From contig JABMSE010000136.1 in assembly GCA_013204645.1 (NCBI GenBank), forward strand, positions 1-40,212: a stretch of 40,212 nucleotides of DNA, in the 5' to 3' direction. The stretch is from Candidatus Saganbacteria bacterium (GTDB taxonomy: Bacteria > Margulisbacteria > WOR-1 > O2-12-FULL-45-9). Numbering within the stretch: the stretch's first letter is position 1; every line of letters begins with the position of its first letter. The translations under genes were made by a program, and so were the position numbers. Under the pieces are notes generated by a model. The model did no database searches and was not told the DNA's origin. It was given only the letters and a program-made list of their open reading frames with translations. Positions 4,662-35,491 of the stretch are shown here, piece after piece.

Positions 4662-5441
4662 TTATTTCTGCTTCTGGTAATTGTTTTGGAACCATTTGTC
4701 AGACCGCAATATCTCTACAACTTTAGCGATATCTTGGGGCGTATCCACGGGTTGGGTAAGATAAGGAGACAGAGCAGAAGCAATTGGGAGGTCATTCTCT
4801 ATGAGGCGCAGCATATCAACCCCTTCGATCAATTCAAGCGGGGTTTGTTTCATTTTTGAAAAAGTCTGTAAAAATGGTGCTCGGAAAGCCATAACACAGG
4901 TTTGGCGATAAAAAACCGATCGCTTTTTTATATCAAATACAGATGCTGGAACAGACTGCCTGGTGAGATAAATAAGCCGATTATTCTGCGATATAACTGC
5001 CTTAATGCGATGATGATTTGTAAGGTCAGCTGGATCAGAAACCACCTCAACTGGGTTTGCACATAGAAAAACACTATCAGAATTAATTAATAATTGAACG
5101 GTAAATTCAATCACCGGAGGCGGTATTGCTGGTTCATCTCCTTGAACATTAACAACTATATCATCATCATTTATATAGCCCATAAGCCGGGCAGCCTCGG
5201 CCACCCGATCCATAGCCGTTGGGGTTTTTGGATCGGTCATAACAAATTTTGCCCCAAAACTCTTGCAGGCACTGGCAACTTTATCTTCACATACCGCCAT
5301 GACAACCTCATCAACATTTCTGGCCAGCAAACTACGTTTATAAACATGCTCGATCATGGGTATTCCCTCAATCATGGTCAGAGGTTTATCCGGGAAACGC
5401 CAGGAACCGAGCCTGGCTGGTATTACAATAAGAGTGCGCAC
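4662..5441 (-). CDS. kdsB: 3-deoxy-manno-octulosonate cytidylyltransferase family protein
   Basis: IPARLGSWRFPDKPL...IPMIEHVYKR, VNVQGDEPAIPPPVIE, and C-terminal GVDMLRLIENDLPI...VDTPQDIAKV are KdsB-like. Confidence 0.88.
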   Translation of the reverse strand: MRTLIVIPARLGSWRFPDKPLTMIEGIPMIEHVYKRSLLARNVDEVVMAVCEDKVASACKSFGAKFVMTDPKTPTAMDRVAEAARLMGYINDDDIVVNVQGDEPAIPPPVIEFTVQLLINSDSVFLCANPVEVVSDPADLTNHHRIKAVISQNNRLIYLTRQSVPASVFDIKKRSVFYRQTCVMAFRAPFLQTFSKMKQTPLELIEGVDMLRLIENDLPIASALSPYLTQPVDTPQDIAKVVEILRSDKWFQNNYQKQK

Positions 5442-6185
5442 TTATAGTGTCTCCTTAAGTTTAGGTTTAACACAATAGCAACCATAACCCAAGGTCCAAG
5501 CTTTTTTACGGTCCAATCCGTCCAAATAAAAGAGAAAAAAGGATATTATTGCCAATAAAATGCGCAGCAACAAATCAAGAGGAAAGACTAACCATTTAAA
5601 AGATGAAGGCACCCGCGACATAAAAGCCTCATGACATTTTTGCAGCACTTTTCCCTGGACCCAAAAAATGCCTCCCAAGGGTTTAATGGAAACAATTTCA
5701 AAACCGGCTTGTTCAAACAAAAATCTTAATCCGAATTCCAAAAAGTTGAAATAGTTGTGGGGTGGCATATGAAGCCCCGAACACTGTGGAGTAGTAAGGA
5801 ACAATTTGCCACCTGGCCTTAATACTCTAAACATTTCGGAAACAACCTTTTGTGGCCTTTTTACATGCTCTAAAACCTGATTGCAAATAATAGCATCGTA
5901 GGTATTATCTGGTTTAGGAATATTCTCGAGGTCACAATGGAAGGTCTGAGGAATATCTGTAGCTTGATTGCTCTCTTCTAGCACAACCTGATAATCACAT
6001 GACTCATAATTAGCCTGGGAAAATAATTTTCGGTAGGGCTGATTTCCTGCCCCAGCATCCAATAAAATATCTCCCGGTTGGATTTGCGGTGCAATTCTCC
6101 GCATAAAATCATCGACCCCATATCGAGGAAAACCTCTCCGGGGATAATTGATAGCAGAAACCAATTTCAAGATTAGCTCACGCAT
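5442..6185 (-). CDS. class I SAM-dependent methyltransferase
   Basis: ILLDAGAGNQPY, DAIICNQVLEHVKRPQKVVSEMFRVLRPGGKLFLTTP. Confidence 0.9.
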   Translation of the reverse strand: MRELILKLVSAINYPRRGFPRYGVDDFMRRIAPQIQPGDILLDAGAGNQPYRKLFSQANYESCDYQVVLEESNQATDIPQTFHCDLENIPKPDNTYDAIICNQVLEHVKRPQKVVSEMFRVLRPGGKLFLTTPQCSGLHMPPHNYFNFLEFGLRFLFEQAGFEIVSIKPLGGIFWVQGKVLQKCHEAFMSRVPSSFKWLVFPLDLLLRILLAIISFFLFYLDGLDRKKAWTLGYGCYCVKPKLKETL

Positions 6186-8017
6186 ATTTCATCTCTTTTC
6201 TTGGACACGCTAATATTTTGATCTCCCCATTTTTCAGCGTATTTTGCATTGGCCCCTCGCAAAACACTTTGCCGAGGAAAACCAGCATCAAAACCCTCTA
6301 AAAGCCAGCGCATGTAGGTACCCATTCGTTCTCCGGCCCTCCCATCTCTGAAAGGATCCAGTTCATCTAAAAAAGGCGTCCAATCCCCTAGCCTAGCATT
6401 ACTAATTTTATCTTCTTTGTACTTCTTTAACGCTCCCATCATCCGATCAAGATTATCAAATATTATTCGCTCATATCCCCATTGATAATACTCATGTGCC
6501 CGCAGAGGGGTTAAGTCACAATGAATACCACGACAACCAGCAATAACCGACTCAACAACCGCCGAGGAAATTCCAATACCAATCACCATATCACTTGCCG
6601 CCGATGCATCCATCACTAAACGGCCAAAATATCTTTCAAGACGAATACTTCTTCCGGTGGCTTCTGCCCTATTAAGCAGAGATAAAACCCGGGGCAAATT
6701 CGAAAGAACCGATGGTTTTTTTGATTTGATTATAATCCCAATATCTGGATCCTCTAATAACCAAGTCAAAAAGGCTAAATAAAACCTTTCCATCATCCCG
6801 CTTGATATATGACAAAAAGGCCCATGAACATTATCAAAGAGAGCTACAATAAACCTGGCTCCCTTTAGATTTAGTTCTTTCTTTAGATCTTGCCCTTCCT
6901 TAAATTTATCTTTAAAAAGAAAATCATTGGGATGGCCTACATGGATGTTAGAACACAGCGCCTTCATCCCCGAATCCAGATACTTTGGCGACCGCAGATT
7001 CCAGGTAAAAAGAATATCTTTAATGTGATGTCCCAACAATGAGGGCGGCGACAAAAAGAACTCGGAGCGCTGCCTGCCAATGCTCAATGACCCCATCAAA
7101 TCCAGGGCAAGGGCCTGAGCTATATATTGAGAGCTGCTCTCTCCCACCAGATAAGAAAGCCTAATATTAAATAGGTTATAAAAAGCAAACCAATAATCCA
7201 CTTCTTTTGAGAGTTGCCTGGCCTGTTTATAGATCCATTTATCGGTCGGTGTTTGCGGCTTAATTTTTAATGAATTCTGGAGCTTTTTGTGACTTGCAGG
7301 AGGCAACCAAACAGCTATATTTTTTAAGGCAATAACGCGCGGCTTAAGGCATATCCACTTAAACCCCATTGCTTCAACAGATTTAACCGCATCTTCGGTC
7401 AAGGGTTTCCCAGTTACATAATCGACATGGTCAAAATAAACCAGTACCCGTTTTGGATCAATGCCGCTCTTTGGAAACCAAGCAATATCGGCGCGACGGT
7501 CAAGATTCACTCCTTCAACGTATTGCAAAGCAATATAGGGGCCCCCACGTTTAATGTCCTCAAAATTACTTTTAGAAAAATTACACTTAAGCCAAAGATT
7601 AAGAAGCCATCGCCCTAGCTTTCGAAACATCATTTTGGGAGAAAAACTAACGCGCTCTTTCTTTAGATAGCGAAGAGCTACATCAGCCGGCCAAACTTGA
7701 TTCAATAACCAATAAATGCCAGGATCAGAGACGACAACCATTGCCTGCTTCACCGTCAACGGTTTATTATTTCTCTTGTACCAGCGAATAACACACAAAT
7801 CACGTACCAGGGAATATATTTCCGCTTTGATAATCTTTTGGAAATACAAAAGGGTTTTGGGACTTTTTAGCTCATCTGCAATTTGGCAATAAATAGGATT
7901 TTTTTGAACAATTTGAGAAAGCTTAATGGCCAAATCAGAAGACAACTCTTCGAGTTCATATCTTAGCGAATCCCCGGATTTACTCTTCATTTCCCCTAAA
8001 TTACAATCAAGTGACAT
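6173..8017 (-). CDS. large putative glycosyltransferase-like surface polysaccharide protein
   Basis: Long ORF in glycan operon; C-terminal ASDMVIGIGISSAVVESVIAGCRGIHCDL is GT-B/capsule-synthesis-like. True start probably ATG at 8017, preceded by AAAGGAG and just after the upstream stop at 8019. Confidence 0.6.
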   Translation of the reverse strand: MSLDCNLGEMKSKSGDSLRYELEELSSDLAIKLSQIVQKNPIYCQIADELKSPKTLLYFQKIIKAEIYSLVRDLCVIRWYKRNNKPLTVKQAMVVVSDPGIYWLLNQVWPADVALRYLKKERVSFSPKMMFRKLGRWLLNLWLKCNFSKSNFEDIKRGGPYIALQYVEGVNLDRRADIAWFPKSGIDPKRVLVYFDHVDYVTGKPLTEDAVKSVEAMGFKWICLKPRVIALKNIAVWLPPASHKKLQNSLKIKPQTPTDKWIYKQARQLSKEVDYWFAFYNLFNIRLSYLVGESSSQYIAQALALDLMGSLSIGRQRSEFFLSPPSLLGHHIKDILFTWNLRSPKYLDSGMKALCSNIHVGHPNDFLFKDKFKEGQDLKKELNLKGARFIVALFDNVHGPFCHISSGMMERFYLAFLTWLLEDPDIGIIIKSKKPSVLSNLPRVLSLLNRAEATGRSIRLERYFGRLVMDASAASDMVIGIGISSAVVESVIAGCRGIHCDLTPLRAHEYYQWGYERIIFDNLDRMMGALKKYKEDKISNARLGDWTPFLDELDPFRDGRAGERMGTYMRWLLEGFDAGFPRQSVLRGANAKYAEKWGDQNISVSKKRDEICVS

Positions 8018-8018
8018 C

Positions 8019-8711
8019 TCAAGCTGCTCCTTTAGATAACAAAAGATCACAAAGCAACAAATCAAGCCTAGAATCAATATCAACAGAACGTTCTTTTGGC
8101 ATAACATAAGCCAACGTTTCTTTGGTCAAAAAAGATTTTTTTTCAAGCAACCAAGTAACCTTGGCACAAGAAACCGCCCCATTTAACACATACACTTTAG
8201 GAAGATCCTGACGACGAATAGATTGGCTGCTTCCTTCAAACAACAGTTTCATTCGCTTTCCCTCATCTAAAGAATACATCCAATAAGGGCTTTTGCTAGA
8301 GGCTGTAAGTGAAACACAAGCACTGGCACATTGGCTCAAACAGGCTTCAATTCCACCATCAATATCTGTCACTTTGCGCAAAGGGGAAGTAGGCTGAAGT
8401 ACAACCACATAATCATAACCCGGCAAACTAGCAAGCACATGCAAAACAACTTCAATGCCAGGTGTTTCATCCTGTGCTAATTCGGCTGGACGAACAAAAG
8501 GAACCTCACATCCAAATTGTTTGGCAACCTTAATTATTTTGGAGTTCTCGGATGATAAAATGAGCCTATCAATATACTTTGATTTTTTTGCCTCCTCTAC
8601 TGTCCAAGCAATTAAAGGTTTGCCAGCTAGCATGCTAATGTTTTTATCCGGCAAGCCTTTAGATCCTCCCCGGGCCGGAATTACAGCTAAGATCTTTTTA
8701 TTATCAAACAT
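8019..8711 (-). CDS. acylneuraminate cytidylyltransferase-like CMP-sugar synthetase (NeuA/LegF family)
   Basis: ILAVIPARGGSKGLPDKNISMLAGKPLIAWTVEEA; VVVLQPTSPLRKVTDIDGGIE; RRQDLPKVYVLNGAV. Confidence 0.9.
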   Translation of the reverse strand: MFDNKKILAVIPARGGSKGLPDKNISMLAGKPLIAWTVEEAKKSKYIDRLILSSENSKIIKVAKQFGCEVPFVRPAELAQDETPGIEVVLHVLASLPGYDYVVVLQPTSPLRKVTDIDGGIEACLSQCASACVSLTASSKSPYWMYSLDEGKRMKLLFEGSSQSIRRQDLPKVYVLNGAVSCAKVTWLLEKKSFLTKETLAYVMPKERSVDIDSRLDLLLCDLLLSKGAA

Positions 8712-8727
8712 AAACTAAATTTTCCTC

Positions 8728-9456
8728 CTAGAAAAAAAACTTAAACAAGATCAACAACAAAGACGCAAGGGACAACAAAATAGCTATGAGCGCTAGAAAA
8801 ATAGCTAGCTTGTTACCAGATTGCTCTTTTTGACTAAAAGAAGGCGTTTGCCCATTAGCAATGGCCACGGCTACAACATATTCTCCAGCATAAGCAAGCG
8901 ACAAACTGAAGCCAGCACAATAAGGCTTTCCTAAATCATCATGCTTAATATTAATTTGCTTGAAAACGATACCTTTATAGGAATTATCAGCTTTAACAAT
9001 TGCTTCTTTCGCACAAAACAGACCAGCAAAACTAACCAGAGGTTTCTTTTGCAAAAGACAATGGGAAATCTCTTCCTGGCTAAAATTTTGCTGATAAAAA
9101 ACGTCTTCCCTGAAGTCCGCTGGGGTAGAAAAATTATCAATTCTTTCCAGATCAATACCTACCCCAGGCGCGCTAGGCTGAAGAGGAAGAGAAGGCTGGA
9201 ACTGGTAATTATCAAGCTTAGGCAGAGAATTCTCACCTAACGTTGTTGTTCTTAGGAGATCGCCAAAAGTATTAACATTGCTATAGTCTAAAATCTTAAG
9301 GCCCAGTTCCTTTTCTAAAACTGCATACAAGCGATGAACAAAAATTGAATTTCCCAAAGCTTTCCGGTCAATCATTGTTGCTTCAACAACCTTTTCAGGT
9401 GGAATCTTAAGGAAAATGCCTACGATTTTTCTTATTTCCAATGTTTTTTCATCCAT
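8728..9456 (-). CDS. acyl carrier protein-like domain fused to holo-ACP synthase (AcpS-type 4'-phosphopantetheinyl transferase) with C-terminal transmembrane anchor
   Basis: N-term LEIRKIVGIFLKIPPEKVVEATMIDRKALGNSIFVHRLYAVLEKELGLKI...VNTFGDLL (ACP-like; NSI in place of DSL). Middle GVGIDLERIDNF...FSQEEISHCL...FCAKEAIVKA (AcpS-like). C-term NKLAIFLALIAILLSLASLLLILFKFFF (TM helix). Confidence 0.78.
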   Translation of the reverse strand: MDEKTLEIRKIVGIFLKIPPEKVVEATMIDRKALGNSIFVHRLYAVLEKELGLKILDYSNVNTFGDLLRTTTLGENSLPKLDNYQFQPSLPLQPSAPGVGIDLERIDNFSTPADFREDVFYQQNFSQEEISHCLLQKKPLVSFAGLFCAKEAIVKADNSYKGIVFKQINIKHDDLGKPYCAGFSLSLAYAGEYVVAVAIANGQTPSFSQKEQSGNKLAIFLALIAILLSLASLLLILFKFFF

Positions 9457-9459
9457 TGT

Positions 9460-10734
9460 TTAGCGCCACCCTTCCAGACATGATCGGCAGATAAATTCCT
9501 CCCTACCATCGTGGGTTATAACTTTTATTAAACCAGGGCCCTTTAAAGATTGGTCCTCTTTTAAGCTTTTTAAGCAAAGATAACATTTTGCTTGTTTTTT
9601 CTCCGATTTGATCTCGCTAAATTTATCATCAGCATCTTCTGGCAGATTTTTCAGGGTATAACTTTTAATGCGCTCTTTTAACTCACGGATAAAAGAACTG
9701 GCCTTTTTGCCTGCGGTTACCCGATGGTCAAACGCCAAAGTCAAAAGCACCCTTTGTAATCTGGGATCAACTGCTGCAACCCCCAAAATGGCCGATTGAT
9801 TTTGATTAATTAAAGGAACAAAAGAGGTAATGTCTTCAGCCGACAGATCAGTAATCGTAAAGGTAGAACCAGTTAGGTCATCTACACTGAGCTTTTTATC
9901 GATATATTTTTCGCCAGCTTCCAAGAGCTGCGCCTCAATCTCGCCAATACTTTTATCAGCCGTATCCTTTATTTTTACAACTTTCAAGCCATCCCCTAAA
10001 TCCAGAGCAATGCCAACATTGACTCTTTTATAGTAAGCAATTGCCTCCCCAGCAAAATATGCATTGAATTCGGGATATTTTAAAAGTAGCCGGGAAACCT
10101 CAAAAATAATTAACGGCAGAAGAGAGTTTTTAAGGGTGAGTGTTTGATTAATAGACTTAAACAGGTGTTCAACATCAAGATAGATGCTGACAGCACTATT
10201 CATGTTGGCCGACTGAACTTGGGAAAGATAATCAATTTCCAATTTTTTACTATGGCTGATTTTTTTTGTCTCAACCAAATTCGAATCGACCGAAGAAGAG
10301 TTCGCTTTTTTCTCCACCCCTTTTTCCCCACCGAGAATCCCTAATACATCATCTCGGCTAACAAAGCCCTTATTGGCAAAGCGCGCCTTATCAATTCCTT
10401 TTGCTTTAATTAATTCCAAAGCTGCCTTAGAAAAAATCGTTGCACCCACCTCTGTCTTTGGCAGAGATCCAGAAGAAACCTCAGGTTCGCAAACTTGGTC
10501 ATAAATTTTTAATAAAAGTCCATTAACGGCAACCTCGTCCTCAGGTCGGCAAAAGTATTTAATATAGCCATCGGTTTCGGCCTCAACAGAAAAAACAGTT
10601 TTAGAATATTCCAACGCTAAAAGAAGGTCGCCCTTTTTAACCTGATCTCCGCTAGCAAAATTCAAGCTAATGATTTGAGCCGACCGATCATTAGCGTTGA
10701 CTTGGGGAACATAAACTTCTTGCAAAAGCTTCAT
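9460..10734 (-). CDS. 2-oxoacid dehydrogenase E2 component-like dihydrolipoamide acyltransferase with lipoyl domain and C-terminal four-cysteine tail
   Basis: Lipoyl region ALEYSKTVFSVEAETDGYIKYF; E3-binding-like GATIFSKAALELIKAKGIDKARFANKGFVSRDDVLGIL; catalytic region LTLAFDHRVTAGKKASSFIRELKERI; tail CYLC...CRSC. Confidence 0.88.
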   Translation of the reverse strand: MKLLQEVYVPQVNANDRSAQIISLNFASGDQVKKGDLLLALEYSKTVFSVEAETDGYIKYFCRPEDEVAVNGLLLKIYDQVCEPEVSSGSLPKTEVGATIFSKAALELIKAKGIDKARFANKGFVSRDDVLGILGGEKGVEKKANSSSVDSNLVETKKISHSKKLEIDYLSQVQSANMNSAVSIYLDVEHLFKSINQTLTLKNSLLPLIIFEVSRLLLKYPEFNAYFAGEAIAYYKRVNVGIALDLGDGLKVVKIKDTADKSIGEIEAQLLEAGEKYIDKKLSVDDLTGSTFTITDLSAEDITSFVPLINQNQSAILGVAAVDPRLQRVLLTLAFDHRVTAGKKASSFIRELKERIKSYTLKNLPEDADDKFSEIKSEKKQAKCYLCLKSLKEDQSLKGPGLIKVITHDGREEFICRSCLEGWR

Positions 10735-12674
10735 GCTAGCCTCTCCTTTATAGTTTTAATAATAGTACCAACGTCTGGCAAAACACACTTCTCCAGGGAA
10801 GGAGATGACGGAATGGGTAGTGGTAACGAGGCAACCCTGCCCAGCTTAATTGCTTGGCTACTTTCTTCTACAACTGAAGTAATAATTTCACTCCCTACCC
10901 CAGCAAAGGCTGACCCCTCTTCTACTACGAATAGTTTTTTTGTTTTCTCTGCTGCTTGCCTAACAATATTTAATTCAAGTGGATTAAGTGGGGAAAGTTG
11001 AGTTAAAACATAAACTTCGGTTATCAACTCTAACTCCTCAAAAATGACTGGCAGAGAGCTTAAAACCAGATCAACCATCCCTCCATAAGTAACCAAAGTA
11101 ATAGTCGGCTTTGCAAACACTGGGGATATTTTTGCCAAGGGATAGCTGCCTTTGGTTCTCTCATATTTATAATGAGGCAGGCGTTTATCGGCGATTCTTT
11201 TGGCATAATCAGCCTTGTTTTCAATTACAATTACAGGATGTTCACTACTTTCTAAAATGTTTTCATAAATAACGCTGGGGTCTATTAAACTATTCAATGC
11301 TAGAGTAGTAATATTATCAATCCCGATCAAAAATTTATCTAAAGTTTGGGAATGAGTTGGCCCATATCCACGATACCCGCCCATGGGAGTTCTAATAACA
11401 ACTGGGCAGCTAACTTGAGCGTTATACATATGGTGGAATTTTGAGGCGTGGTTAATAATCTGATCCATACAAAGGGTAACAAAATCCCCGAACATAATTT
11501 CTAGAAAGGGCCTAAAACCCGCTAAGGCCAAACCATTAGCAATCCCAGTAATGGCTGGTTCGCTAATAGGAGTTGCAAAAACCCTTTCCGGATACTTTAC
11601 GGAAAGTCCCTTTGCTATTTTAAAAGCCCCACCATATGGCGAGAGCACATCTTCCCCCATAAAAATGACTTTGTCATCTGCGGCCATGGACTTCATAAAA
11701 AAATCATTGATCAATTCTCCCTGCCTCTTTTTAATGGATTCAATGGGAATCCATAAAATAGGTGCTTCTTCTTTTCTAGCCGGATAATAATCTTTTATTG
11801 ATATCTCGTCGGCGCTCAAATGCCGTTTTATGGCAACATCGATTGAGCTATCTACTTCGATGAGCAATTGCTCATAGGCTTCTTGATTCTCCCGGGCAAA
11901 ATTATATAAGGGATCCCGATTTCTGAACGTCTCAATTTCTGCTGGATCGCGGTGGTCATCTCCCTTTGAATGCGGATACAACCTGTACGTCTCAACTAGA
12001 TGAAAGACGGGTTTTTTCTCTTTTCGAACCATATCTATGGACTCTTTGGCCTTTTTTACAAGGTCCTGGGGAGAAAAAGTTTCGCTTCTTAGGGTTCTTA
12101 TTCCAAAAGCTTCTGCCCGTTTAATAATATCGCCGGCAAGATTGGTCTCGCTCTTGGTTGATTGGGCGTAATAATTGTTCTCGCAAATTATCAATAAGGG
12201 GATATCCCATTTGGAAATAATATTCATCGTCTCGTAGACTACTCCCTGCCCTAGAGTTCCATCCCCAATAAATACAACACCGATTGAGTTGCTATTACAT
12301 AATTTTTTGGCAAGAGCCATCCCCGCCGCCACCGGAACTATCCCTCCTTGTATGCCATTGGAATAAAAATTATTGCCACATAAATGCTGGGAACCACCAA
12401 TTCCTGAGCAGACACCGGTTTTTTTGCCCAGGATCTCAGCAATCAGCCCTTCATGGTCTTTTAAGAATGAAATGTAATGACCATGACACCTGTGATTGGA
12501 AAAGACAAAATCACCCTTTTGCAATTGACCAGCAAAAGCAATGGCAGAAAATTCCTGGCCAACACAGGAATGAATGGTCCCACTCAATCTGCCCTCTGAG
12601 AACAACTGCAAAAGCTTCTCCTCCACCCGGCGGATCAAAAGGGCTTCCCTAAATAATTCCAAAGCTTGTGTCAT
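10731..12674 (-). CDS. thiamine-diphosphate-dependent 2-oxoacid dehydrogenase E1, fused alpha-beta subunits
   Basis: Alpha: HSCVGQEFSAI, FIGDGTLGQGVVYETMNIISKWDIPLLIICENN (ThDP motif). Beta: MGEDVLSPYGGAFKIAKGLSVKYPERVFATPISEPAITGIANGLALAGFRPFLEIMFGDF, TPMGGYRGYGPTHSQTLDKFL. Confidence 0.93.
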   Translation of the reverse strand: MTQALELFREALLIRRVEEKLLQLFSEGRLSGTIHSCVGQEFSAIAFAGQLQKGDFVFSNHRCHGHYISFLKDHEGLIAEILGKKTGVCSGIGGSQHLCGNNFYSNGIQGGIVPVAAGMALAKKLCNSNSIGVVFIGDGTLGQGVVYETMNIISKWDIPLLIICENNYYAQSTKSETNLAGDIIKRAEAFGIRTLRSETFSPQDLVKKAKESIDMVRKEKKPVFHLVETYRLYPHSKGDDHRDPAEIETFRNRDPLYNFARENQEAYEQLLIEVDSSIDVAIKRHLSADEISIKDYYPARKEEAPILWIPIESIKKRQGELINDFFMKSMAADDKVIFMGEDVLSPYGGAFKIAKGLSVKYPERVFATPISEPAITGIANGLALAGFRPFLEIMFGDFVTLCMDQIINHASKFHHMYNAQVSCPVVIRTPMGGYRGYGPTHSQTLDKFLIGIDNITTLALNSLIDPSVIYENILESSEHPVIVIENKADYAKRIADKRLPHYKYERTKGSYPLAKISPVFAKPTITLVTYGGMVDLVLSSLPVIFEELELITEVYVLTQLSPLNPLELNIVRQAAEKTKKLFVVEEGSAFAGVGSEIITSVVEESSQAIKLGRVASLPLPIPSSPSLEKCVLPDVGTIIKTIKERLA

Positions 12675-13711
12675 TTGGCTCCTATCTCCTCAAATCTAAG
12701 TGTGGTCTTGTTTTCTTTTGAAAATAAATTCTCCAAGATAGTTTTGATCTCTTGTTTTGATAGCAAACGGGCACGGGAGGAATCATACTCTACCGGAGTT
12801 TTTCCCCCTTTATCCTTGTCTAACATTTGTGAGGAGACGACAAAAAGGCCATCCATCTCTTTTGCGTTTGACTCTTCCATGTGAGTCATTAATTCTTCAT
12901 GATATTTTTCGCCAGCTCGAACCCCCACATTCTCAATTTTAATGTCAGAAGCTTTATAACCCAGGGCAGGAGCAAACATTTCTACCATTGCTTCCGCTAA
13001 AAGACCTATTTTCACTGCCGGCATTTTTAAAATGAATATTTCGCCACCGTCAGCCAGAAAAGTGGCTTTTAAGATCAATCCCACCGCTTGAGGAATCGTC
13101 ATAACAAAACGGGTCATATCCGGATCGGTAACTGTTACCGGGCCACCATTCTTAATCTGCTTCAAAAATATGGGCACGACGGAACCGCGAGAAGCCAGAA
13201 CATTTCCAAATCGTACGCTCGACAAAATAGTTCTCTTTTTCCCGCGATAATTATTGGCAGAAATAGTAATACGCTCGGCCAGTAATTTAGTTGCTCCTAG
13301 CACATTGATTGGATTGGCCGCTTTATCAGTGCTGATATTTATAACCTTCTCTACATTTTCCTCAAGGGCAATTTTAATCACATTCTCGGTTCCCATCACA
13401 TTGGTTTTAACTGCTTCAAAAGGATCAAATTCACAGGCCGAAACATGCTTGAGTGCTGCAGCATGAAAGACAACATCAATGCCTTGCATTGCCCATTTTA
13501 GACGCTCTCGCTCCCTTATATCTCCAAACAAAAAACGAACTCGGCCCTTAGCCCCTACCTCCTGAGAAAGATTAAATTGGGCATCCTCGTCGTTGCTGTA
13601 AACTCGAATAGTTTCGGGATCATAACTTAATAGCTGCCTGACAATTTCACTGCCAATTGACCCCGTGCCCCCGGTAACCAGTATTTTTTTTCCTTTAAAA
13701 TGCTCCCTCAT
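12671..13711 (-). CDS. CapD/PseB/LegB-like nucleotide-sugar 4,6-dehydratase (polysaccharide biosynthesis SDR)
   Basis: ILVTGGTGSIGSEIVRQLL; FHAAALKHVSACEFDPFEAVKTNVMGTENVI; STDKAANPINVLGATKLLAE; SVRFGNVLASRGSVVPIF. Confidence 0.93.
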   Translation of the reverse strand: MREHFKGKKILVTGGTGSIGSEIVRQLLSYDPETIRVYSNDEDAQFNLSQEVGAKGRVRFLFGDIRERERLKWAMQGIDVVFHAAALKHVSACEFDPFEAVKTNVMGTENVIKIALEENVEKVINISTDKAANPINVLGATKLLAERITISANNYRGKKRTILSSVRFGNVLASRGSVVPIFLKQIKNGGPVTVTDPDMTRFVMTIPQAVGLILKATFLADGGEIFILKMPAVKIGLLAEAMVEMFAPALGYKASDIKIENVGVRAGEKYHEELMTHMEESNAKEMDGLFVVSSQMLDKDKGGKTPVEYDSSRARLLSKQEIKTILENLFSKENKTTLRFEEIGAK

Positions 13712-14874
13712 TTTTTTACCTCCCTAATAATACTTTTAAGCTCGTCAGCCACACAATCAATCTGCTTCTCGTTCAAATTATTATAAAACGGCAAGGCAAT
13801 TGTTCTCCCTGACACCTCCTCTGTCACCGGGAAACTACCTTTTTTATAGCCGAATTTTTCCACGTAAAAAGGCTGTAGATGGATGGGAGGAAAATACCTG
13901 TTACATCCAATTCCCTCTCTTCTCAGCCTTCTGATAATCTCATCCCGGTCTGTTTTTGAAAAATCATTATTTAAGCGCACTACATAAACAAACCAGCTTC
14001 TATTAATATTATTTGATCCCTGCGGCGGAAGAACAATGCCGTCTATTTCTGCTAATCTTAAAGCATAAGCTCTTGCAAAACTTTCTCTCTTTGCCAAAAA
14101 CTCGTCTATTCTGCCCAACTGAGCCATCCCCAGGGCACAGTTTATATCGCTTAGACGATAGTTATAGCCCAGGCGTGCATGCGCCAGCCATTCCATTCCG
14201 TCATCCCGGCCCTGGTTCCTTAAACTCGCTGCCAGGTTGGCTATTTCTTCATTATTTGTAACGATCATTCCGCCTTCCCCGGTTGTCATCTGCTTATTTG
14301 GATAAAAGGCAAATACAGAACAATCCCCAAAAGTACCAACTTTCATACCATCCACCTCTGCACCGATCGCTTCACAAGCATCTTCTATGACAAATAAATT
14401 ATGTTTATCGGCTATCTGCTTAATCTTCTCCATAGCACAAGGATAACCAAAAACATGCACCGGCAGTATGGCCTTTGTTTTTTCGGTGATTTTTTCTTCG
14501 ATCTTACTCTCATCAATATTGAACGTATCAGTCCGTATATCGACAAAAACCGGTTTGGCCCTTTCAAAAAGGATACAATTGGCCGACGAAATAAAACTAA
14601 AAGGGGAAGTTATAACCTCATCTCCCTCCTTTATGCCCAGGGCCTTAATACATAAATGCAATCCACTGGTCCCGCTGTTCACGGCTCTGGCATATTTGGT
14701 TCCAACATATCGCGCAAAAGCACTCTCAAATTCCACAAGCTTTGGGCCCAAGCTCAAGTGAGGCGTCTTTAACACATCCACAACAGCCTGGATCTCTGCT
14801 TGGCCTATATCTGGACTGGATAAAGGGATATTATCCTTATCGCCAACCCTAAATTTCTCAGAAGCACTTATCAC
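13708..14874 (-). CDS. DegT/DnrJ/EryC1/StrS family PLP aminotransferase (LegC/PseC-type role likely from context)
   Basis: AVNSGTSGLHLCIKALGIKEGDEVITSPFSFISSAN; VIEDACEAIGAEVDG; FYPNKQMTTGEGGMIVTNN with PLP lysine. Confidence 0.93.
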   Translation of the reverse strand: MISASEKFRVGDKDNIPLSSPDIGQAEIQAVVDVLKTPHLSLGPKLVEFESAFARYVGTKYARAVNSGTSGLHLCIKALGIKEGDEVITSPFSFISSANCILFERAKPVFVDIRTDTFNIDESKIEEKITEKTKAILPVHVFGYPCAMEKIKQIADKHNLFVIEDACEAIGAEVDGMKVGTFGDCSVFAFYPNKQMTTGEGGMIVTNNEEIANLAASLRNQGRDDGMEWLAHARLGYNYRLSDINCALGMAQLGRIDEFLAKRESFARAYALRLAEIDGIVLPPQGSNNINRSWFVYVVRLNNDFSKTDRDEIIRRLRREGIGCNRYFPPIHLQPFYVEKFGYKKGSFPVTEEVSGRTIALPFYNNLNEKQIDCVADELKSIIREVKK

Positions 14875-14887
14875 AGAGCAATTCTCC

Positions 14888-15901
14888 TTATAATTCTATT
14901 AATTCATCCGGCTCAAAATTACGCTTTGCTCGACTGCCAATTATGGCGTCCCATTTCATTGGGCTTATACCATTTCCCGGCCTTTTAACTGTTATGTTTT
15001 TGTCTGAAAAAGAATCGCCCTTAATGATCTTATCAAGCGCAACAATGCTTTTTCTGCCCGCAGCCAGATTCACAAGTTCAGAAGGGGATACTTTTTTCGC
15101 GCCATCTCCCAGAGCTTTTTCTATATTTCTGATGGCAGCCACCATGTTTTCGAGCTCTATTGGATCAAGAGAAGCCTGATGGTCAGGCCCACTCATATTC
15201 TTATCAAGTGTAAAATGCTTTTCTATAATGTCCGCACCCAAAGCGGCAGCAGCTATGGAAACTTCTATCCCAAGAGTGTGATCAGAATACCCCACCGCAA
15301 CCCCAAGTTCTTTTTGCATAGTAGACATGGCCAGCAAATTTACGTCTTTCATGGGAGTCGGATAGGCCACATTGCAATGTAGAACAACCATGTTTTCCTT
15401 TTCTGTTCCCGCCGCTACCAAAACATCGATTGCCTTTTGTATCTCATCCAGGCTTGCCATCCCGGTTGATAATATTATTTTCCTCTTTAAGCTTCCGATC
15501 TTTTTTAAATAAGGTAAATCTGTTATCTCCCCAGACGGTATTTTAAATATTTCAACTCCTAATCTATTTAAAAGCTCTATACTATCCAGGTCAAAGGGAG
15601 ATGACAAAAAGACTATTCCTCTCTTCTGGCAGTGATCCATAAGTTGGCAGTGCGCATTTTCATCCAGTTCCAACTTTTTTAGCATATCCAACTGAGATTC
15701 ATATTTATCGGTCGCTATTTTTTGGTAGGATGCTTTAGGCGCAAATCTGGAGGTTGCTTTCTCTGCCTTAAAAGTTTGAAACTTAATTGCATCCACACCA
15801 CAGCTGGCAGCTCTATCCACCATTTGCATAGCCAATTCAACGCTACCATTGTGGTTTACTCCAGCCTCAGCAATAATAAATATTTTTTCTGCAAAACTCA
15901 T
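14888..15901 (-). CDS. neuB: N-acetylneuraminate / legionaminate synthase family protein
   Basis: FIIAEAGVNHNGSVELAMQMVDRAASCGVDAIKFQTF; HCNVAYPTP; GYSDHTLGIEVSIAAAALGADIIEKHFTLDKNMSGPDH; C-terminal SAF-like RKSIVALDKIIKGDSFSDKNITVKRPGNGISP. Confidence 0.95.
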   Translation of the reverse strand: MSFAEKIFIIAEAGVNHNGSVELAMQMVDRAASCGVDAIKFQTFKAEKATSRFAPKASYQKIATDKYESQLDMLKKLELDENAHCQLMDHCQKRGIVFLSSPFDLDSIELLNRLGVEIFKIPSGEITDLPYLKKIGSLKRKIILSTGMASLDEIQKAIDVLVAAGTEKENMVVLHCNVAYPTPMKDVNLLAMSTMQKELGVAVGYSDHTLGIEVSIAAAALGADIIEKHFTLDKNMSGPDHQASLDPIELENMVAAIRNIEKALGDGAKKVSPSELVNLAAGRKSIVALDKIIKGDSFSDKNITVKRPGNGISPMKWDAIIGSRAKRNFEPDELIEL

Positions 15902-16296
15902 TTATTTTTTCTCATAATTTTTGCCGGGACGCCAAAAGCCACACAATCATCAGGAATATCAGTTTTAACCAAAGAACAAGCTCCAACCACAGCATTTTTG
16001 CCTATCGTAACCCCAGACATAACCACACAATGGCTTCCCAAACAACTGTTCTCCTTAAGGTGCACCTTCCCTTCACGCTTATCAATGGTGGAAACAGAAT
16101 AGATAGAACAATGCGAACCAATCTGAACATTATCCTCAAGGACCACCCCACACTTCGCATTTATATAGGTAAAAGCACCGATATCCGTATTTTTACCTAA
16201 TTTTAAATTGTCCTTATGTTGCACCACCCAGTTATATTTGGTCAGCTTACCTTCTTCGATATCCGGATATTCCCAATTTTTAAATCTTTCCGACAT
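15898..16296 (-). CDS. left-handed beta-helix (hexapeptide) acyltransferase
   Basis: Hexapeptide repeats VVLEDNVQIGSHCSIYSVS..., SCLGSHCVVMSGVTIGKNAVVGACSLVKTDIPDDCVAFGVPAKIMR. Confidence 0.9.
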   Translation of the reverse strand: MSERFKNWEYPDIEEGKLTKYNWVVQHKDNLKLGKNTDIGAFTYINAKCGVVLEDNVQIGSHCSIYSVSTIDKREGKVHLKENSCLGSHCVVMSGVTIGKNAVVGACSLVKTDIPDDCVAFGVPAKIMRKNK

Positions 16297-16309: not shown

Positions 16310-17485
16310 CTAATAAGTTATCTGTTTATGCAAAAGTTTCTTGCCCATCCCAATGCTGCTAAGCACTTTGATGATCTGCTGGCTGGCATTCCCTTTTCCG
16401 TATGGAGACTTGCACTTTTTAGCAGCTTCCTTAAATTTCTCATCATAAAGCGCCTTCATAACTGCTTTTTGAATCTTATCTTTCACCGAATCAATAAAGA
16501 TCACATTTTTGGCATGTTCTCTGCCAATATTCCTGGCGCCGATATTTATAGCGGGTAACCTAAGGGTCGTGCTTTCAAGAATGCCGCTACTGGAATTGCC
16601 CACTAAAACATCCGCATACCTGAGCAAGCTAATATATTCCAAATGTGATAAGTTTTTAAAAGGCTTGAGGAAATCTGATTTTTTATTGACCTCGATCTCC
16701 CTAATAATAGCTTCGCTCCCATTATCATTATTTGGATAAATCAATACTGTTTGTAGGTTTATTTCTGAAAGGGCCCGTAATATCACCCGCATATGTTTGC
16801 CAGCAAGATCGATTTCCATTTGATTGGAATGAAAAACACAAACAATTACCTTTTTCCCCGAACAAAGACCTAACTTTTTGAATAATTTCTTTTTATCTAG
16901 AAGCTTTTGCCCAACTATTGAATCCAACCCCAGACTGCCAACATTTAAGACCCGGAAAGGCTCCTCTCCCATTGCCAGCAAACGCGCAGCATGTTTTTTC
17001 GTCGCCGTAAAGTGGAGATGGGCAAATCTTGTTATAGCGTATCTTATGCTCTCATCAATATGGCCGCTGTCAGTCTTATCCCCTCCGGCGATATGAGCAA
17101 TCGGAATATTTAAAGTTGCCGCCGCCAACACCGCTGCCAGCGGCTCCAAGCGATCACCTAAAACAACCAACATATCCGGCTTAAGCTGTGATAAAACTTT
17201 TGCAAAGTTAGCAGTTGCTATGCCTAAAGCTTTGCCATGATAGGCGGCACCATTTGAACCTTTCCGCGGATACATATTGACCGTCCCGCTTAGCTTAAAA
17301 CCGTCCCGGGCTATTTCTTTGACCGTTAAACCGTATTCTCTTAATAAATGCATGCCCGTAACCATCAGGTTCAAATCTAAAGATGTTGACTGATCAATTT
17401 TCTCAATCAATGGCTTCAAAATACCATATTCAGCCCTGGTTCCAGTAACCACAGCAATTTTTCTTTTCATTTTTTCCTTACTCAC
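16310..17485 (-). CDS. neuC: UDP-N-acetylglucosamine 2-epimerase, hydrolysing (NeuC/LegG family)
   Basis: AVVTGTRAEYGILKPLIEKI; VVLGDRLEPLAAVLAAATLNIPIAHIAGGDKTDSGHIDESIRYAITRFAHLHF; GNSSSGILESTTLRLPAINIGARNIGRE. Confidence 0.94.
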   Translation of the reverse strand: MSKEKMKRKIAVVTGTRAEYGILKPLIEKIDQSTSLDLNLMVTGMHLLREYGLTVKEIARDGFKLSGTVNMYPRKGSNGAAYHGKALGIATANFAKVLSQLKPDMLVVLGDRLEPLAAVLAAATLNIPIAHIAGGDKTDSGHIDESIRYAITRFAHLHFTATKKHAARLLAMGEEPFRVLNVGSLGLDSIVGQKLLDKKKLFKKLGLCSGKKVIVCVFHSNQMEIDLAGKHMRVILRALSEINLQTVLIYPNNDNGSEAIIREIEVNKKSDFLKPFKNLSHLEYISLLRYADVLVGNSSSGILESTTLRLPAINIGARNIGREHAKNVIFIDSVKDKIQKAVMKALYDEKFKEAAKKCKSPYGKGNASQQIIKVLSSIGMGKKLLHKQITY

Positions 17486-20033: not shown

Positions 20034-20972
20034 TTAGCTTATCTCCATGTTTTTCATCATTACATGGATGCCTTCTGCCAATGAGATAGAAGGTTTCCAT
20101 CCGAGTTGCTTCTTTATTTTATCAATCGACATCAGTCTATCCGGCCAAATCTTACCCGGGGGAGCAGGAACACTTTTAATATTAATTTTTTTCCCCCATA
20201 GCTTTTGGGCATTATCCGAAACAATTTTCGCTATCTGCTTGATCGAAAACAGCTTCCCACTTCCCAAATTAAATATCTGGTTTTCAACCGATGCATCTTT
20301 AAGTATTATTTCCATGCAGCACACAAGATCATCAAGATTTACATAGTCTATTTTTTGGCTCCCTTCCCCAAAAACCGTAATATCCGAGCCATCGCCAGCT
20401 GCCTTAATGAAATTTTCAATCGCGCCGCCTTTTTGAATTTTATTGAATCCTCCTCGATAACCATACACATTGGAAAAGCGAAGTATAATATAGCTCAATC
20501 CACTGTCCTTTATTTGATACTCCGCCACAGCTTTGAGGGCACCATATAAATCATCAGGCAATAATTCCATATCTTCCGTCAGGGGCATTTCTCTTTCTTT
20601 GTAGATCGAATATGCAACATAGCTAGACGCAAAAATAAATCTCTTGACCTGGTATTCTCGGGATTTCTGGAGTAATAAATGGGTCCCATGAACGTAAGAA
20701 GTTACTGCATCGGCGGGATCCTTCATACAAGCTCCGTTTCCCCCACCACCGGCCAAGTGTATTACCACATCTATTCCTTCTTTCATCACTTTATCAAGAA
20801 GATGCTGGTCCCTTATATCACCCTTCATGAATTTCACATTATCCTTCACTAAAGCAGGAAGATTAGGATATTTCTGCCCCAGATCCAGGCTTATGATTTC
20901 ATATTCATAGGGCAGATTCATTAAAAGCGCGCTGCCAATAAAACCACCCCCCCCAATAATCAATATTTTCAT
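20034..20972 (-). CDS. NAD-dependent epimerase/dehydratase (extended SDR)
   Basis: MKILIIGGGGFIGSALL; VVIHLAGGGGNGACMKDPADAV; DLYGALKAVAEYQ; RFSNVYG. Confidence 0.93.
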   Translation of the reverse strand: MKILIIGGGGFIGSALLMNLPYEYEIISLDLGQKYPNLPALVKDNVKFMKGDIRDQHLLDKVMKEGIDVVIHLAGGGGNGACMKDPADAVTSYVHGTHLLLQKSREYQVKRFIFASSYVAYSIYKEREMPLTEDMELLPDDLYGALKAVAEYQIKDSGLSYIILRFSNVYGYRGGFNKIQKGGAIENFIKAAGDGSDITVFGEGSQKIDYVNLDDLVCCMEIILKDASVENQIFNLGSGKLFSIKQIAKIVSDNAQKLWGKKINIKSVPAPPGKIWPDRLMSIDKIKKQLGWKPSISLAEGIHVMMKNMEIS

Positions 20973-21622
20973 TTTTTCTCCTCTCTTATTTCTCTAATTA
21001 ACGCAAAGGCCTCGGCATGCTCCCGGCATATCTCCAATCCTCGCTTCTGGGCTAATATCCTCACCCCTTTTTCACTTCTGGGATGGGGATAAGGTTTTAC
21101 TTCGGATTTATAGATCTTTAAGGCCTCCACTTTCTTGTCTATAAATCCGCCTATGTTTACCCAATAATTAGGCAAAAATGCCTGGTTATTCCATTCTGTC
21201 TCAGATAAGGTCTCAAAACACAAAAGCTTAATATTTTTAGGGGGGCGGCTGGCTACCATGGAAGCCCTAAAAATCAATGTGTGATCCAAATTTAGGTCCC
21301 CTTCAAAATGAGTATAAATAATATCTGGATTAACTCCATCTACAACTTCTGCTATCTTTTTATTGATCTCTCCATGGGACAAAGTGTTTAACTTAACCGT
21401 GGGCAGATCAAGATTAAACCTCTTTTTAACCCCCAACAAATTATCCACTTGTTCTTGTTCTTTTATTTTCTCTTCCATATATTCTTTCGGCCACTGTGGC
21501 TCATAGGCCTTTGTGACAATACAAACAAAAACCTCATCGCCGGCTTTTGTGTGTTTTAATATTGTCCCTCCTACTCCCAAGACTTCGTCATCCGGATGTG
21601 CTGCAACAACTAAAACTTTCAT
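20969..21622 (-). CDS. PIG-L family deacetylase
   Basis: MKVLVVAAHPDDEVLGVGGTILKHTKAGDEVFVCIVT; IYTHFEGDLNLDHTLIFRASMVASRP. Confidence 0.94.
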   Translation of the reverse strand: MKVLVVAAHPDDEVLGVGGTILKHTKAGDEVFVCIVTKAYEPQWPKEYMEEKIKEQEQVDNLLGVKKRFNLDLPTVKLNTLSHGEINKKIAEVVDGVNPDIIYTHFEGDLNLDHTLIFRASMVASRPPKNIKLLCFETLSETEWNNQAFLPNYWVNIGGFIDKKVEALKIYKSEVKPYPHPRSEKGVRILAQKRGLEICREHAEAFALIREIREEKK

Positions 21623-24453: not shown

Positions 24454-25837
24454 TGACGATCTTTTCCTTGGGAAACAAATTCTCTTCCCCGCGGCTGCTG
24501 ATCAGCTTTTCCGCAAAATGTAGTCCGATCTCATCCCTTACTTCCACAGAGCTGTAAACGTCTTTGATCTTCATGATCCCGATCTTTTCACCCAAAATAT
24601 GCCCCTGGCGCAGAAAAACTGGATGAGTGGCACACCCCAATCCTTTGATTCCAATGTAGAGGGGCTGCTTGATTTTTCTGGGAATAAATCCCGGGTCAAT
24701 GCGTTTGAGATTGCCTTTTTCTGTGACCCAACCTGCCCCAAATTCCGGCCGCGCAGCAATAACACTGTCAAGCCCCTCTTTGACCATGCGCAGGATCAAT
24801 TGATCAATAAATCCTTTTGGACGAAAGGGAAAAGTTATTTCCAGGGTTACAACAATATCAGCGATAATCCCCTGTTTTTCCATCTCATTGATCGAATATT
24901 GATAGACTTGCTCAAGATCTACCCCCTCATTAGAAAGAGTGGTCGCTCTCATAAAAGGGACTTTTGCTCCACACTCCCGCGCCATCTCTGCATGCTCTTC
25001 TTTATCGGTTGAAACTATAACTTGCTTAACAAATTTAGACGCTTTAGCAGAAGCGATGGTGTATTCCAAAAGAGGCCGGCCATTTAAAAACAATACTTCT
25101 CCCCTTACCGGGATAAGAGCGACTATATTAAGATGCGACAGATCAAGGTGGCGGAATTCATAACCATCTTCCTTTCCAAGATTTTCCAAAATCCTCACAA
25201 CGTTTGTGCAACGCTCTGCATTCTGGTTCTGATGAATTCCGTGATAATGATAGACACTGGCATCCGGCTCATAAATAATCTTAAAACCAACTTTTAGCAC
25301 TTCCTTTGCCCAAAGGCGGTCTTCAATATTGGTTGTTTCGCAATCAAAGGGCAACTTCTCCCAGACATCCCTGCGGATCATGCTGTTAGCATTATGAAAA
25401 AAACTATCCTTGGTTTGCACTTTCTTATCAAGCCCAAAGACCGTAAGCAGGTCTCTTTTATCGGTATCTGAAGTAAAAGACATTGGTTCCTGCCTTCCAT
25501 ATACACCAGCCACTTTATCATCATCAAAATTCTTGATAAGATTAGAAAGCCACTTAGCATTTACAGGGATACAATGTGCTGACAAACACACAATGAAATC
25601 TCCTTTTGCTGCGCGAATACCCAGATTGATAGATTTGCCAGGAAGAAAATCATCAATGCTAATTATTTTAACCGGATGTTTTTCAGCTTTTTTTACGGTC
25701 TGATCTGTACTCTTATTGTCAACTAAAATAACTTCAAAATCTTTATATTCCTGCCCAAAGACTGCTTTTAAGCAAGCCCCGATCCACTTTTCTTCGTTAT
25801 GGGAACGGATTATTATTGAAATCCTAGGTTTTTTCAC
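24446..25837 (-). CDS. bifunctional-architecture protein: GT2 glycosyltransferase fused to a degenerate NeuA-like cytidylyltransferase domain
   Basis: GT2: ISIIIRSHNEEKWIGACLKAVFGQEYKDFEVILVDNKSTDQT. From about residue 235: NIVALIPVRGEVLFLNGRPLLEYTIASAKASKFVKQVIVSTDKEEHAEMARECGAKVPFMR..., clearly NeuA-like. Confidence 0.88.
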   Translation of the reverse strand: MKKPRISIIIRSHNEEKWIGACLKAVFGQEYKDFEVILVDNKSTDQTVKKAEKHPVKIISIDDFLPGKSINLGIRAAKGDFIVCLSAHCIPVNAKWLSNLIKNFDDDKVAGVYGRQEPMSFTSDTDKRDLLTVFGLDKKVQTKDSFFHNANSMIRRDVWEKLPFDCETTNIEDRLWAKEVLKVGFKIIYEPDASVYHYHGIHQNQNAERCTNVVRILENLGKEDGYEFRHLDLSHLNIVALIPVRGEVLFLNGRPLLEYTIASAKASKFVKQVIVSTDKEEHAEMARECGAKVPFMRATTLSNEGVDLEQVYQYSINEMEKQGIIADIVVTLEITFPFRPKGFIDQLILRMVKEGLDSVIAARPEFGAGWVTEKGNLKRIDPGFIPRKIKQPLYIGIKGLGCATHPVFLRQGHILGEKIGIMKIKDVYSSVEVRDEIGLHFAEKLISSRGEENLFPKEKIVNE

Positions 25838-26373
25838 TGTTTTACTCCCCTTTCACCAGGTCTAAAACACAAAATCTGAGCTGGGACGCCGCCGACAATG
25901 CTATAGGGGCCAACATCCCCTGTTACAACTGATCCAGCACTGATAATTGCTCCTCTACCAATTTCCACATCACCTAAAATAGTAACTTTTGACCCAATCC
26001 AGACATCATCGCCAATTACAACTTTCTGTTCGCTATAGCCCTGTTCTTTCATAAAAACATCTCGGCGGGAAAAATTATGGCTACTTGGCACAATCGTACA
26101 ATTATTCGCCATGGCCACATAATTTCCAATAATAATATCTCCCCCACCTTCTAAATAAGAATATTCATGAATAGACACCCTGTCTCCAATAGATACTCTT
26201 TCTGGAGACTTAATGGTTACCCCATCCGCAATATTAAAGCCTTTTCCTGCTTGTTTTAAGAGAATCCGATAACATTTATTCCTTATATTCAAAGCAAAAA
26301 GAGAAGGGTTATATTTTACAGCCCCTGCTATTGATCTGGCGATTTTTCTTTTTACCTTTTGGCCAAGTCCCAT
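25834..26373 (-). CDS. hexapeptide-repeat acyltransferase (maltose/galactoside O-acetyltransferase-like)
   Basis: VTIKSPERVSIGDRVSIHEYSYLEGGGDIIIGNYVAMANNCTIVPSSHNF...VVIGDDVWIGSKVTILGDVEIGRGAIISAGSVVTGDVGPYSIVGGVPAQI. Confidence 0.93.
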   Translation of the reverse strand: MGLGQKVKRKIARSIAGAVKYNPSLFALNIRNKCYRILLKQAGKGFNIADGVTIKSPERVSIGDRVSIHEYSYLEGGGDIIIGNYVAMANNCTIVPSSHNFSRRDVFMKEQGYSEQKVVIGDDVWIGSKVTILGDVEIGRGAIISAGSVVTGDVGPYSIVGGVPAQILCFRPGERGVKQ

Positions 26374-28321: not shown

Positions 28322-28899
28322 ATTTTACCCTCCGCTCGTTTTTCAATAATTGCCTCGAGGATATAATGACAAATTGTTTCATGAATAATTTCAATGTGAC
28401 TATAGGCATTGCAAGGCAGATAGAAGTTTAGCTTGCCCATCTTCCGAAGAGGGTTATCCGGAGAGAATCCAGATAAAGTAATAACCTGGGCAGTCTTTTG
28501 CAGCGCCGCTTTGACCCCATTTATAATATTTTCCGATCGTCCCGAACTGCTAATTGCGATTAAGACATCTCTTGGATCCGCAAACATCTCAATTGGTTTT
28601 CCAAAAACATGTTTATAACCGAAATCATTGCTGATGCAAGTCAAAAGCGATCCTTCATTAAATGCGGTGGCTTTGATTTTACCATTCCTCCAATAGTCAA
28701 TTGCCATATGACTGGCAATCGCAGCACTTCCACCATTGCCAATAAAAATAAGCTTGCCCCCTTGCGAGTTCTGTCTAAGGATTAGTGCGATTGCTTCCTC
28801 AGCTGCAATGGAAAAATTAAGCTTTTCCTCATTTATTCCATTTGCCTCTATTAGTTTTATGAATTTACTCAGATCCTTATAATATTTTGCAAGTGGCAT
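28318..28899 (-). CDS. SIS-domain sugar isomerase (GmhA-like phosphoheptose isomerase family)
   Basis: GGKLIFIGNGGSAAIASHMAIDYWRNGKIKATAFNEGSLLTCISNDFGYKHVFGKPIEMFADPRDVLIAISSSGRSENII. Start set to ATG 28899 (MPLAKYYKDLSK), preceded by AAGGAG, rather than 28926. Confidence 0.92.
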   Translation of the reverse strand: MPLAKYYKDLSKFIKLIEANGINEEKLNFSIAAEEAIALILRQNSQGGKLIFIGNGGSAAIASHMAIDYWRNGKIKATAFNEGSLLTCISNDFGYKHVFGKPIEMFADPRDVLIAISSSGRSENIINGVKAALQKTAQVITLSGFSPDNPLRKMGKLNFYLPCNAYSHIEIIHETICHYILEAIIEKRAEGKI

Positions 28900-35486: not shown

Positions 35487-35491
35487 AAACT

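Follow-up and report, generated by a model that had tools for sequence, protein, structure and literature searches.

A fused E1, a lipoyl-E2 and a membrane-anchored carrier protein as a candidate acyl-supply complex for surface glycans in Candidatus Saganbacteria

Contig JABMSE010000136.1 of the Candidatus Saganbacteria bacterium assembly GCA_013204645.1 (40,212 nucleotides, hereafter the window) carries three consecutive genes, on the minus strand at positions 8728-12674, that encode a fused E1 of the 2-oxoacid dehydrogenase type, a lipoyl-bearing E2, and a fusion of a predicted acyl carrier protein (ACP) with an AcpS-type phosphopantetheinyl transferase and a membrane helix. All three are located where a preliminary description of this DNA had placed them. 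This triad is probably a dedicated acyl-supply complex for surface-glycan biosynthesis, in which an acyl group, most likely glycolyl, would travel from E1 through the lipoyl-E2 to the membrane-held ACP, and from there, via a hexapeptide acyltransferase, to a sugar. The genes and their key sites are as follows.

10731..12674, minus strand: fused thiamine diphosphate (ThDP)-dependent E1 alpha-beta of the RenH family, 647 amino acids (Pfam, 46% identity to RenH, tree)
9460..10734, minus strand: E2 with lipoyl domain, chloramphenicol acetyltransferase (CAT)-type core and zinc-ribbon-like tail, 424 amino acids (Pfam, invariant residues)
10600..10602, minus strand: Lys45 codon of E2, predicted lipoylation site (invariant alignment column)
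9478..9585, minus strand: CxxC...CxxC zinc-ribbon-like module of E2, amino acids 384-419 (sequence; conserved in the E2s of class A, defined below)
8728..9456, minus strand: fusion of ACP, AcpS-type phosphopantetheinyl transferase and membrane helix, 242 amino acids (Pfam ACPS, AlphaFold, Foldseek)
9346..9348, minus strand: Ser37 codon of the fusion, predicted 4'-phosphopantetheine site (invariant in 38/38 relatives; aligned with the AcpP DSL serine; start of a helix)
8866..9165, minus strand: AcpS-type phosphopantetheinyl transferase domain, amino acids 98-197 (Pfam; D102, K150 and E151 invariant)
8734..8811, minus strand: predicted C-terminal membrane helix, amino acids 216-241 (AlphaFold helix; hydrophobic tail in most relatives)

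We surveyed the neighborhoods of 80 loci chosen by similarity to the window E1 (relatives 39-62% identical) and typed them by domain profiles into classes A, A', B and N; many of these loci are contigs of metagenome-assembled genomes with cut ends, for which the class labels are incomplete, and one is labelled Klebsiella though derived from a metagenome bin. By far the commonest neighbors of the fused E1 are E2, ACP-AcpS and hexapeptide proteins. Class A, which combines E1, an E2 with the zinc-ribbon-like tail and ACP-AcpS, accounts for 39 of the 80 loci and is distributed over Bacteroidota, Omnitrophota, Myxococcota, Nitrospirota, Acidobacteriota, Planctomycetota, Verrucomicrobiota and other phyla; among 74 genomes of the host's own phylum, only the window genome has the ACP-AcpS fusion. 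A hexapeptide gene is present within 3 kb upstream in 29 of the 33 testable class A loci, compared with 2 of 95 background windows. In Chitinophagaceae, the class A genes lie in exopolysaccharide clusters that also encode glycosyltransferases, GDP-mannose dehydratase and CpsB/CapC-type proteins.

In the 16 class B loci, E2 core and ACP are both absent, and a single protein joins the lipoyl domain to a hexapeptide acyltransferase (L074:11995-13023, L036:11914-13017, L056:11899-12984 and the 13 others); a separate hexapeptide gene on the same strand is not found near E1. All 11 fusions scanned contain the lipoyl and Hexapep domains, and nine of them also PglD_N. For the L074 fusion, the best solved relatives are the perosamine N-acetyltransferase PerB (1e-35) and PglD, and lipoyl domains as well as PerB come up as matches to its AlphaFold model (mean pLDDT 73); a histidine aligned with that of the PerB VDHDC stretch is nearly invariant in the class. 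Consecutive genes in L074 encode a PseB-like dehydratase, LegC, NeuA, NeuB, E1, lipoyl-PglD, LplA, the dihydrolipoamide dehydrogenase E3, a formyltransferase-like protein and a PIG-L deacetylase, and the Vibrio splendidus locus (L036) encompasses NeuA, NeuB, NeuC, E3, a polysaccharide deacetylase, E1 and the lipoyl-hexapeptide protein; a search for an E. coli strain of known O-antigen carrying the Vibrio version gave no match. On the E1 tree, the fusion label requires at least 4 changes, and therefore the set of E2, ACP and hexapeptide protein and the lipoyl-hexapeptide fusion replaced each other repeatedly. The class B fusion is apparently an E2 in which the catalytic core was swapped for a sugar acyltransferase, and the repetition of this swap is strong evidence, the strongest in this report, that a sugar is the final destination of the acyl carried by the lipoyl group.

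Going by sequence, the individual steps, the acyl group and its acceptor can be proposed as follows. With ThDP, the fused E1 would obtain a two-carbon hydroxyacyl unit from its donor, glycolyl from either hydroxypyruvate or a ketose phosphate being the likeliest case, and reductively acylate the lipoyl group on Lys45 of E2. The E2 core would load this acyl onto the Ser37-bound phosphopantetheine of the ACP; the fused AcpS domain would install that phosphopantetheine in cis, and the C-terminal helix would keep the carrier membrane-bound. Final transfer to a sugar amine (or hydroxyl) would be the task of a hexapeptide acyltransferase (15898-16296 or 25834-26373), the acceptor probably being the 4-amine generated by the PseC/LegC aminotransferase, later N-7 of the nonulosonate, whereas recycling and lipoylation of E2 would fall to proteins encoded elsewhere in the host genome, Lpd and an LplA-like ligase, respectively. 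Hexapeptide acyltransferases that use ACP thioesters are known, namely, LpxA and LpxD. The preliminary description had put forward much the same route, a dedicated acyl thioester passed from lipoyl-E2 to the ACP and on to an amino sugar by a hexapeptide protein; the occurrence of the triad across phyla, the adjoining hexapeptide gene and the class B fusions speak for that part, but the specificity for nonulosonates is not supported. More generally, and still tentatively, it seems possible that a 2-oxoacid dehydrogenase-like family was rewired from coenzyme A (CoA) to glycans, its lipoyl arm giving glycolyl to an ACP or, in the core-replaced clusters, directly to an amino sugar.

The window E1 matches PF00676 (E1_dh, E=1e-42), PF02779 (Transket_pyr, 1.9e-24) and PF02780 (Transketolase_C, 2.6e-10). 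Among annotated proteins of a plasmid collection, its best relative is RenH from the renieramycin cluster (46% identity over 99% of the length, the next matches being at ~31%), followed there by RenI, a lipoyl-E2; in phage records, relatives are weak only (about 26-32%). A tree built from 33 members of the family and 10 canonical E1s taken from its hosts splits the family with 100/100 support from the E1s of canonical pyruvate dehydrogenase (PDH) and branched-chain 2-oxoacid dehydrogenase (BCKDH), and RenH is nested within the family. Family-typical sites near the catalytic center are Thr33 (Phe in human PDH), SNHRxHGH, K/R237-x-D239-D240, Arg435, Tyr437 and Thr440, with His64/His66, Lys237, Arg435 and Tyr437 among the changed pocket positions; these sites are invariant or nearly so throughout the family, RenH included, in members from glycan and nonribosomal peptide synthetase (NRPS) clusters alike, and differ in most canonical E1s. 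Such a polar pocket with an extra Arg and Lys would fit a hydroxylated or phosphorylated donor better than pyruvate. Priming of a carrier by E1 and E2 has been put forward for the glycolicacyl unit of naphthyridinomycin, as well as for pepteridine (PMC5384830). Because of this pocket and the RenH/NapB-type kinship, glycolyl is the favored candidate for the acyl group, although we would stop somewhat short of calling it probable.

The same architecture might carry acetyl derived from pyruvate, or another simple acyl such as propionyl or isobutyryl, and thus form a CoA-independent local supply for ordinary acetylation. The solved structures nearest to the window E1 are indeed PDH E1 alpha and beta, and the nearest NCBIfam models are those of PDH; furthermore, the acyls of pepteridine are proposed to derive from 2-oxoacids (PMC5384830). 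We nevertheless consider acetyl or its simple analogs unlikely, given the separate clade and altered pocket of the E1, the apparent wastefulness of a dedicated complex when acetyl-CoA is normally at hand, and the position of RenH as the nearest natural-product relative.

The E2 (Biotin_lipoyl, 8.7e-9; 2-oxoacid_dh, 1.1e-38) has the lipoyl domain (amino acids 6-77) and the CAT-type core with catalytic His (166-359) expected of a canonical complex, followed by the C-terminal CxxC-CxxC tail, and an alignment of 27 relatives shows K45, H337, C384, C387, C416 and C419 to be invariant. The tail, which perhaps docks the ACP, is missing from most of the E2s inspected in classes N and A', with two from Acidobacteria as exceptions. 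Pfam E3_binding is matched weakly, in 4 of 27 class A and 1 of 11 class B members, so that a subunit-binding domain in the E2 linker is only probable.

Several observations weigh against the proposed transfer of glycolyl through E2 and ACP to a nonulosonate sugar. In the window E2, Ala replaces the Asp of the HxxxDG motif, leaving the catalytic strength of the core uncertain. The hexapeptide protein at 15898-16296 is four genes away from E1 and contains no PglD_N. The assignment of glycolyl comes from homology (46% to RenH, the role of which is itself predicted) and from pocket residues of presumed role. NeuB was not found in the flanks of any of the 39 other class A loci. Thus, a fixed linkage of the triad to nonulosonate genes, the absence of which the preliminary description had named as a reason to abandon its proposal, was rejected for the triad, whereas the class B fusions do show such an association, with NeuB in 6 of the 16 loci and a PseC-type aminotransferase in six; given this distribution, the triad is a general surface-glycan accessory, placed here in a nonulosonate cluster. 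Furthermore, a membrane-held ACP could serve a membrane O-acyltransferase of the MBOAT family instead. No MBOAT was recognized among the window genes scanned. In class A' (6 loci), a standalone ACP adjoins E1, and in L066 an MBOAT gene is located two genes upstream of this ACP, the same MBOAT gene cluster being represented in L055, L068 and L069. The complete row in L066 (7338-12971) consists of MBOAT, a ~316-amino acid gene, standalone ACP, E1 and E2; L069 has the same row, L068 a similar one and L055 a related one. By analogy, this row may be a Dlt-like acylation set charged by E1/E2 rather than by an adenylating enzyme; the standalone ACPs with an MBOAT in such Bacteriovorax-like loci speak for the acyl-supply reading. 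Finally, Pfam PP-binding is silent on the predicted ACP domain, with no match in 38 members.

Because of this silence, the ACP domain was tested by structure and profile. The AlphaFold model of the fusion, built on 38 relatives (mean pLDDT 89.5), consists of a helical bundle (ACP helices 3-16, 31-34, 37-51 and 64-72) with one helix beginning at Ser37, an AcpS fold and the hydrophobic terminal helix 216-241. In hhalign comparisons with ACPs, Ser37 falls on the DSL serine of AcpP (probability 77%, against 0.1% for the reversed control). The second domain matches Pfam ACPS (2.7e-12) and, in Foldseek, the phosphopantetheinyl transferase of fungal fatty acid synthase and bacterial AcpS; D102, K150 and E151, along with Ser37 of the first domain, are invariant in all 38 relatives. 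The model and profile thus support the N-terminal domain being an ACP.

That the acyl-ACP supplies a natural product or lipid, by way of an NRPS or polyketide synthase-like system, and not a glycan, appears quite improbable for the window triad. Relatives do occur in NRPS-type clusters (actinobacteria, Acidobacteria, renieramycin), and class N comprises 7 loci, assigned by gene size and clustering, in which E1 has large proteins as neighbors in NRPS-like clusters (actinobacteria, Acidobacteria and a Legionella relative). However, domain profiles identified no condensation, adenylation, ketosynthase or NRPS domains in the window proteins scanned, the window is rich in sugar-nucleotide and glycosyltransferase genes, and class A relatives are found within exopolysaccharide clusters. 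As a separate observation, a locus of Acetivibrio straminisolvens (L037:9983-14442) combines a fused E1 of this family (in two frames) with E2, an aspartate aminotransferase-like protein and genes for an ABC transporter; an E3-like gene is close by, and the locus does not look like a glycan cluster.

The host assembly (1.78 Mb, 160 contigs, 94% complete, 3.64% contaminated) was searched family by family. The window E1 and E2 are the only such pair in this genome, with its sole E2 core; the other Transket_pyr proteins, judged by open-frame length, are one DXS-sized and one half-transketolase-sized. Elsewhere in the genome are encoded a dihydrolipoamide dehydrogenase-like Lpd (contig C57), an LplA-like ligase (C101), a separate housekeeping-type AcpS (C21), a pyruvate:ferredoxin oxidoreductase (PFOR) domain (C155) and GcvH (C88). 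The presence of Lpd and the LplA-like ligase means that E3 and lipoylation are borrowable from the host, as had been anticipated from the window sequence, and the PFOR domain is an alternative candidate for pyruvate oxidation. It is extremely improbable that the pair is the host's housekeeping pyruvate or branched-chain 2-oxoacid dehydrogenase sitting by chance in a glycan cluster, the case that the preliminary description had said would undo its proposal: although no other pair exists in the genome and Lpd and the LplA-like ligase are present, these two are explicable by GcvH, PFOR is available, the window E1 falls outside the canonical E1s, five aerobic hosts of this E1 family have several further E1 paralogues, and the genes overlap with the dehydratase and include a fused ACP-AcpS partner, so that a housekeeping PDH was rejected.

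The triad is closely embedded in the surrounding genes. E1 overlaps the upstream dehydratase gene by 4 bp (12671-12674), E2 overlaps E1 by 4 bp, the ACP-AcpS gene starts 3 bp past E2, and the NeuA/PseF-like gene starts 16 bp beyond ACP-AcpS. The overlap with the dehydratase and the NeuA-like CMP-sugar synthetase as the next downstream gene were both correctly described before, but the LegB label was not, because TIGR04180 scores only 65 bits and TIGR03589 points to the PseB/FnlA type. The upstream set comprises this dehydratase, an aminotransferase, NeuB, a hexapeptide protein and NeuC; with NeuB and NeuC over the NCBIfam cut-offs, and the aminotransferase and CMP-sugar synthetase under theirs, the locus qualifies as a nonulosonate cluster.

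8019..8711, minus strand: CMP-nonulosonate cytidylyltransferase-like, PseF/NeuA type (CTP_transf_3; TIGR03584 151 bits, under cut-off)
12671..13711, minus strand: UDP-GlcNAc 4,6-dehydratase-like, PseB/FnlA type (Polysacc_synt_2 6.7e-107; TIGR03589 318.6 bits, under cut-off 407.75)
13708..14874, minus strand: PseC/LegC-type sugar aminotransferase, presumed source of the 4-amino group (DegT_DnrJ_EryC1 1.4e-125; PseC and LegC models both under cut-off)
14888..15901, minus strand: NeuB-type nonulosonate synthase (TIGR03569 491 bits, over cut-off 399.65)
15898..16296, minus strand: hexapeptide (left-handed beta-helix) acyltransferase, 132 amino acids, candidate acceptor of the acyl group (Hexapep; resembles sugar acetyltransferases including PerB)
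16310..17485, minus strand: NeuC-type UDP-sugar 2-epimerase (TIGR03568 415.9 bits, over cut-off 235.9)
20969..21622, minus strand: PIG-L-type de-N-acetylase, which could free an amine for re-acylation (PF02585 7.3e-24)
25834..26373, minus strand: second hexapeptide acyltransferase (Hexapep; NCBIfam acetyltransferase models under cut-off)

The 40 kb contain five CTP_transf_3 (CMP-sugar synthetase-like) genes (4662-5441, 8019-8711, 24446-25837, 26377-27093 and 32669-33376), one of them fused to a family 2 glycosyltransferase, so that several different acidic sugars are probably made. A D-2-hydroxyacid dehydrogenase (1678-2634) and an Ldh_2-type protein of the malate/L-lactate family (23407-24453) are also encoded in the cluster, and either could make the 2-oxoacid donor for E1. 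Four large proteins (574-723 amino acids) without a Pfam match (6173-8107, 28877-30952, 30945-32669 and 33369-35540) are perhaps undescribed glycosyltransferases, and a B12-binding radical SAM protein (35492-36955) lies within the sugar cluster.

Known recipients of acyl groups from lipoyl arms are CoA and, in a small number of natural-product pathways, carrier proteins. The same chemistry appears to be used across many phyla on surface polysaccharides and sialic acid-like sugars, a widespread and apparently undescribed route of glycan decoration. Among the papers searched for lipoyl together with legionaminic or pseudaminic acid, we found no description of such a system; the "lipoylation" of a flagellin paper (PMC4875605) refers to fatty-acid genes, not to lipoyl domains. 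In bacteria, N-glycolyl is known on muramic acid, where it is produced by hydroxylation (PMC9561416). If correct, the present proposal would account for the way in which some bacteria could place uncommon N- or O-acyl groups (glycolyl, for example) on their surface sugars, provide a path, independent of both CoA and a hydroxylase, to glycolylated glycans, N-glycolyl nonulosonates among them, and yield both a genomic marker for such glycans and a modular enzyme set.

Among known systems, the triad resembles RenH-RenI of renieramycin biosynthesis, where a fused E1 of the same clade is followed by a lipoyl-E2 and the partner is a carrier protein, not CoA. NapB-NapD of the naphthyridinomycin pathway, likewise a fused E1 followed by a lipoyl-E2, is proposed to supply a glycolicacyl-carrier unit. 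Unlike these systems, which belong to nonribosomal peptide clusters, the ACP here is fused to its own phosphopantetheinyl transferase and a membrane helix and is encoded in a nonulosonate/surface-glycan operon. The pepteridine E1 and E2-T-C proteins of Photorhabdus are similar in that E1 and a lipoyl-type E2 charge a thiolation (T) domain with E3 coming from the host, but there E2 itself carries the T and condensation (C) domains as a fusion, an acyl-pterin is made, and sugar genes are absent (PMC5384830). With canonical PDH and BCKDH, the triad shares the domain chemistry of E1 and lipoyl-E2 and differs in the separate E1 clade, the changed pocket, the lack of a local E3 gene, the zinc-ribbon-like E2 tail and the ACP-AcpS partner. 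The sugar N-acetyltransferases of the PglD/LegH/PerB type have the hexapeptide fold in common with the proteins described here, and class B fuses this same enzyme type to a lipoyl domain, whereas the known members use acetyl-CoA, as in the PerB crystal structures with CoA. Finally, in Dlt-type acylation, the carrier DltC, loaded by the adenylating enzyme DltA, works with the MBOAT protein DltB; the Bacteriovorax-like relatives with MBOAT and ACP beside E1-E2 recall this arrangement, the difference being that the acyl would be loaded by E1/E2, not DltA, and that the window itself has no recognized MBOAT.

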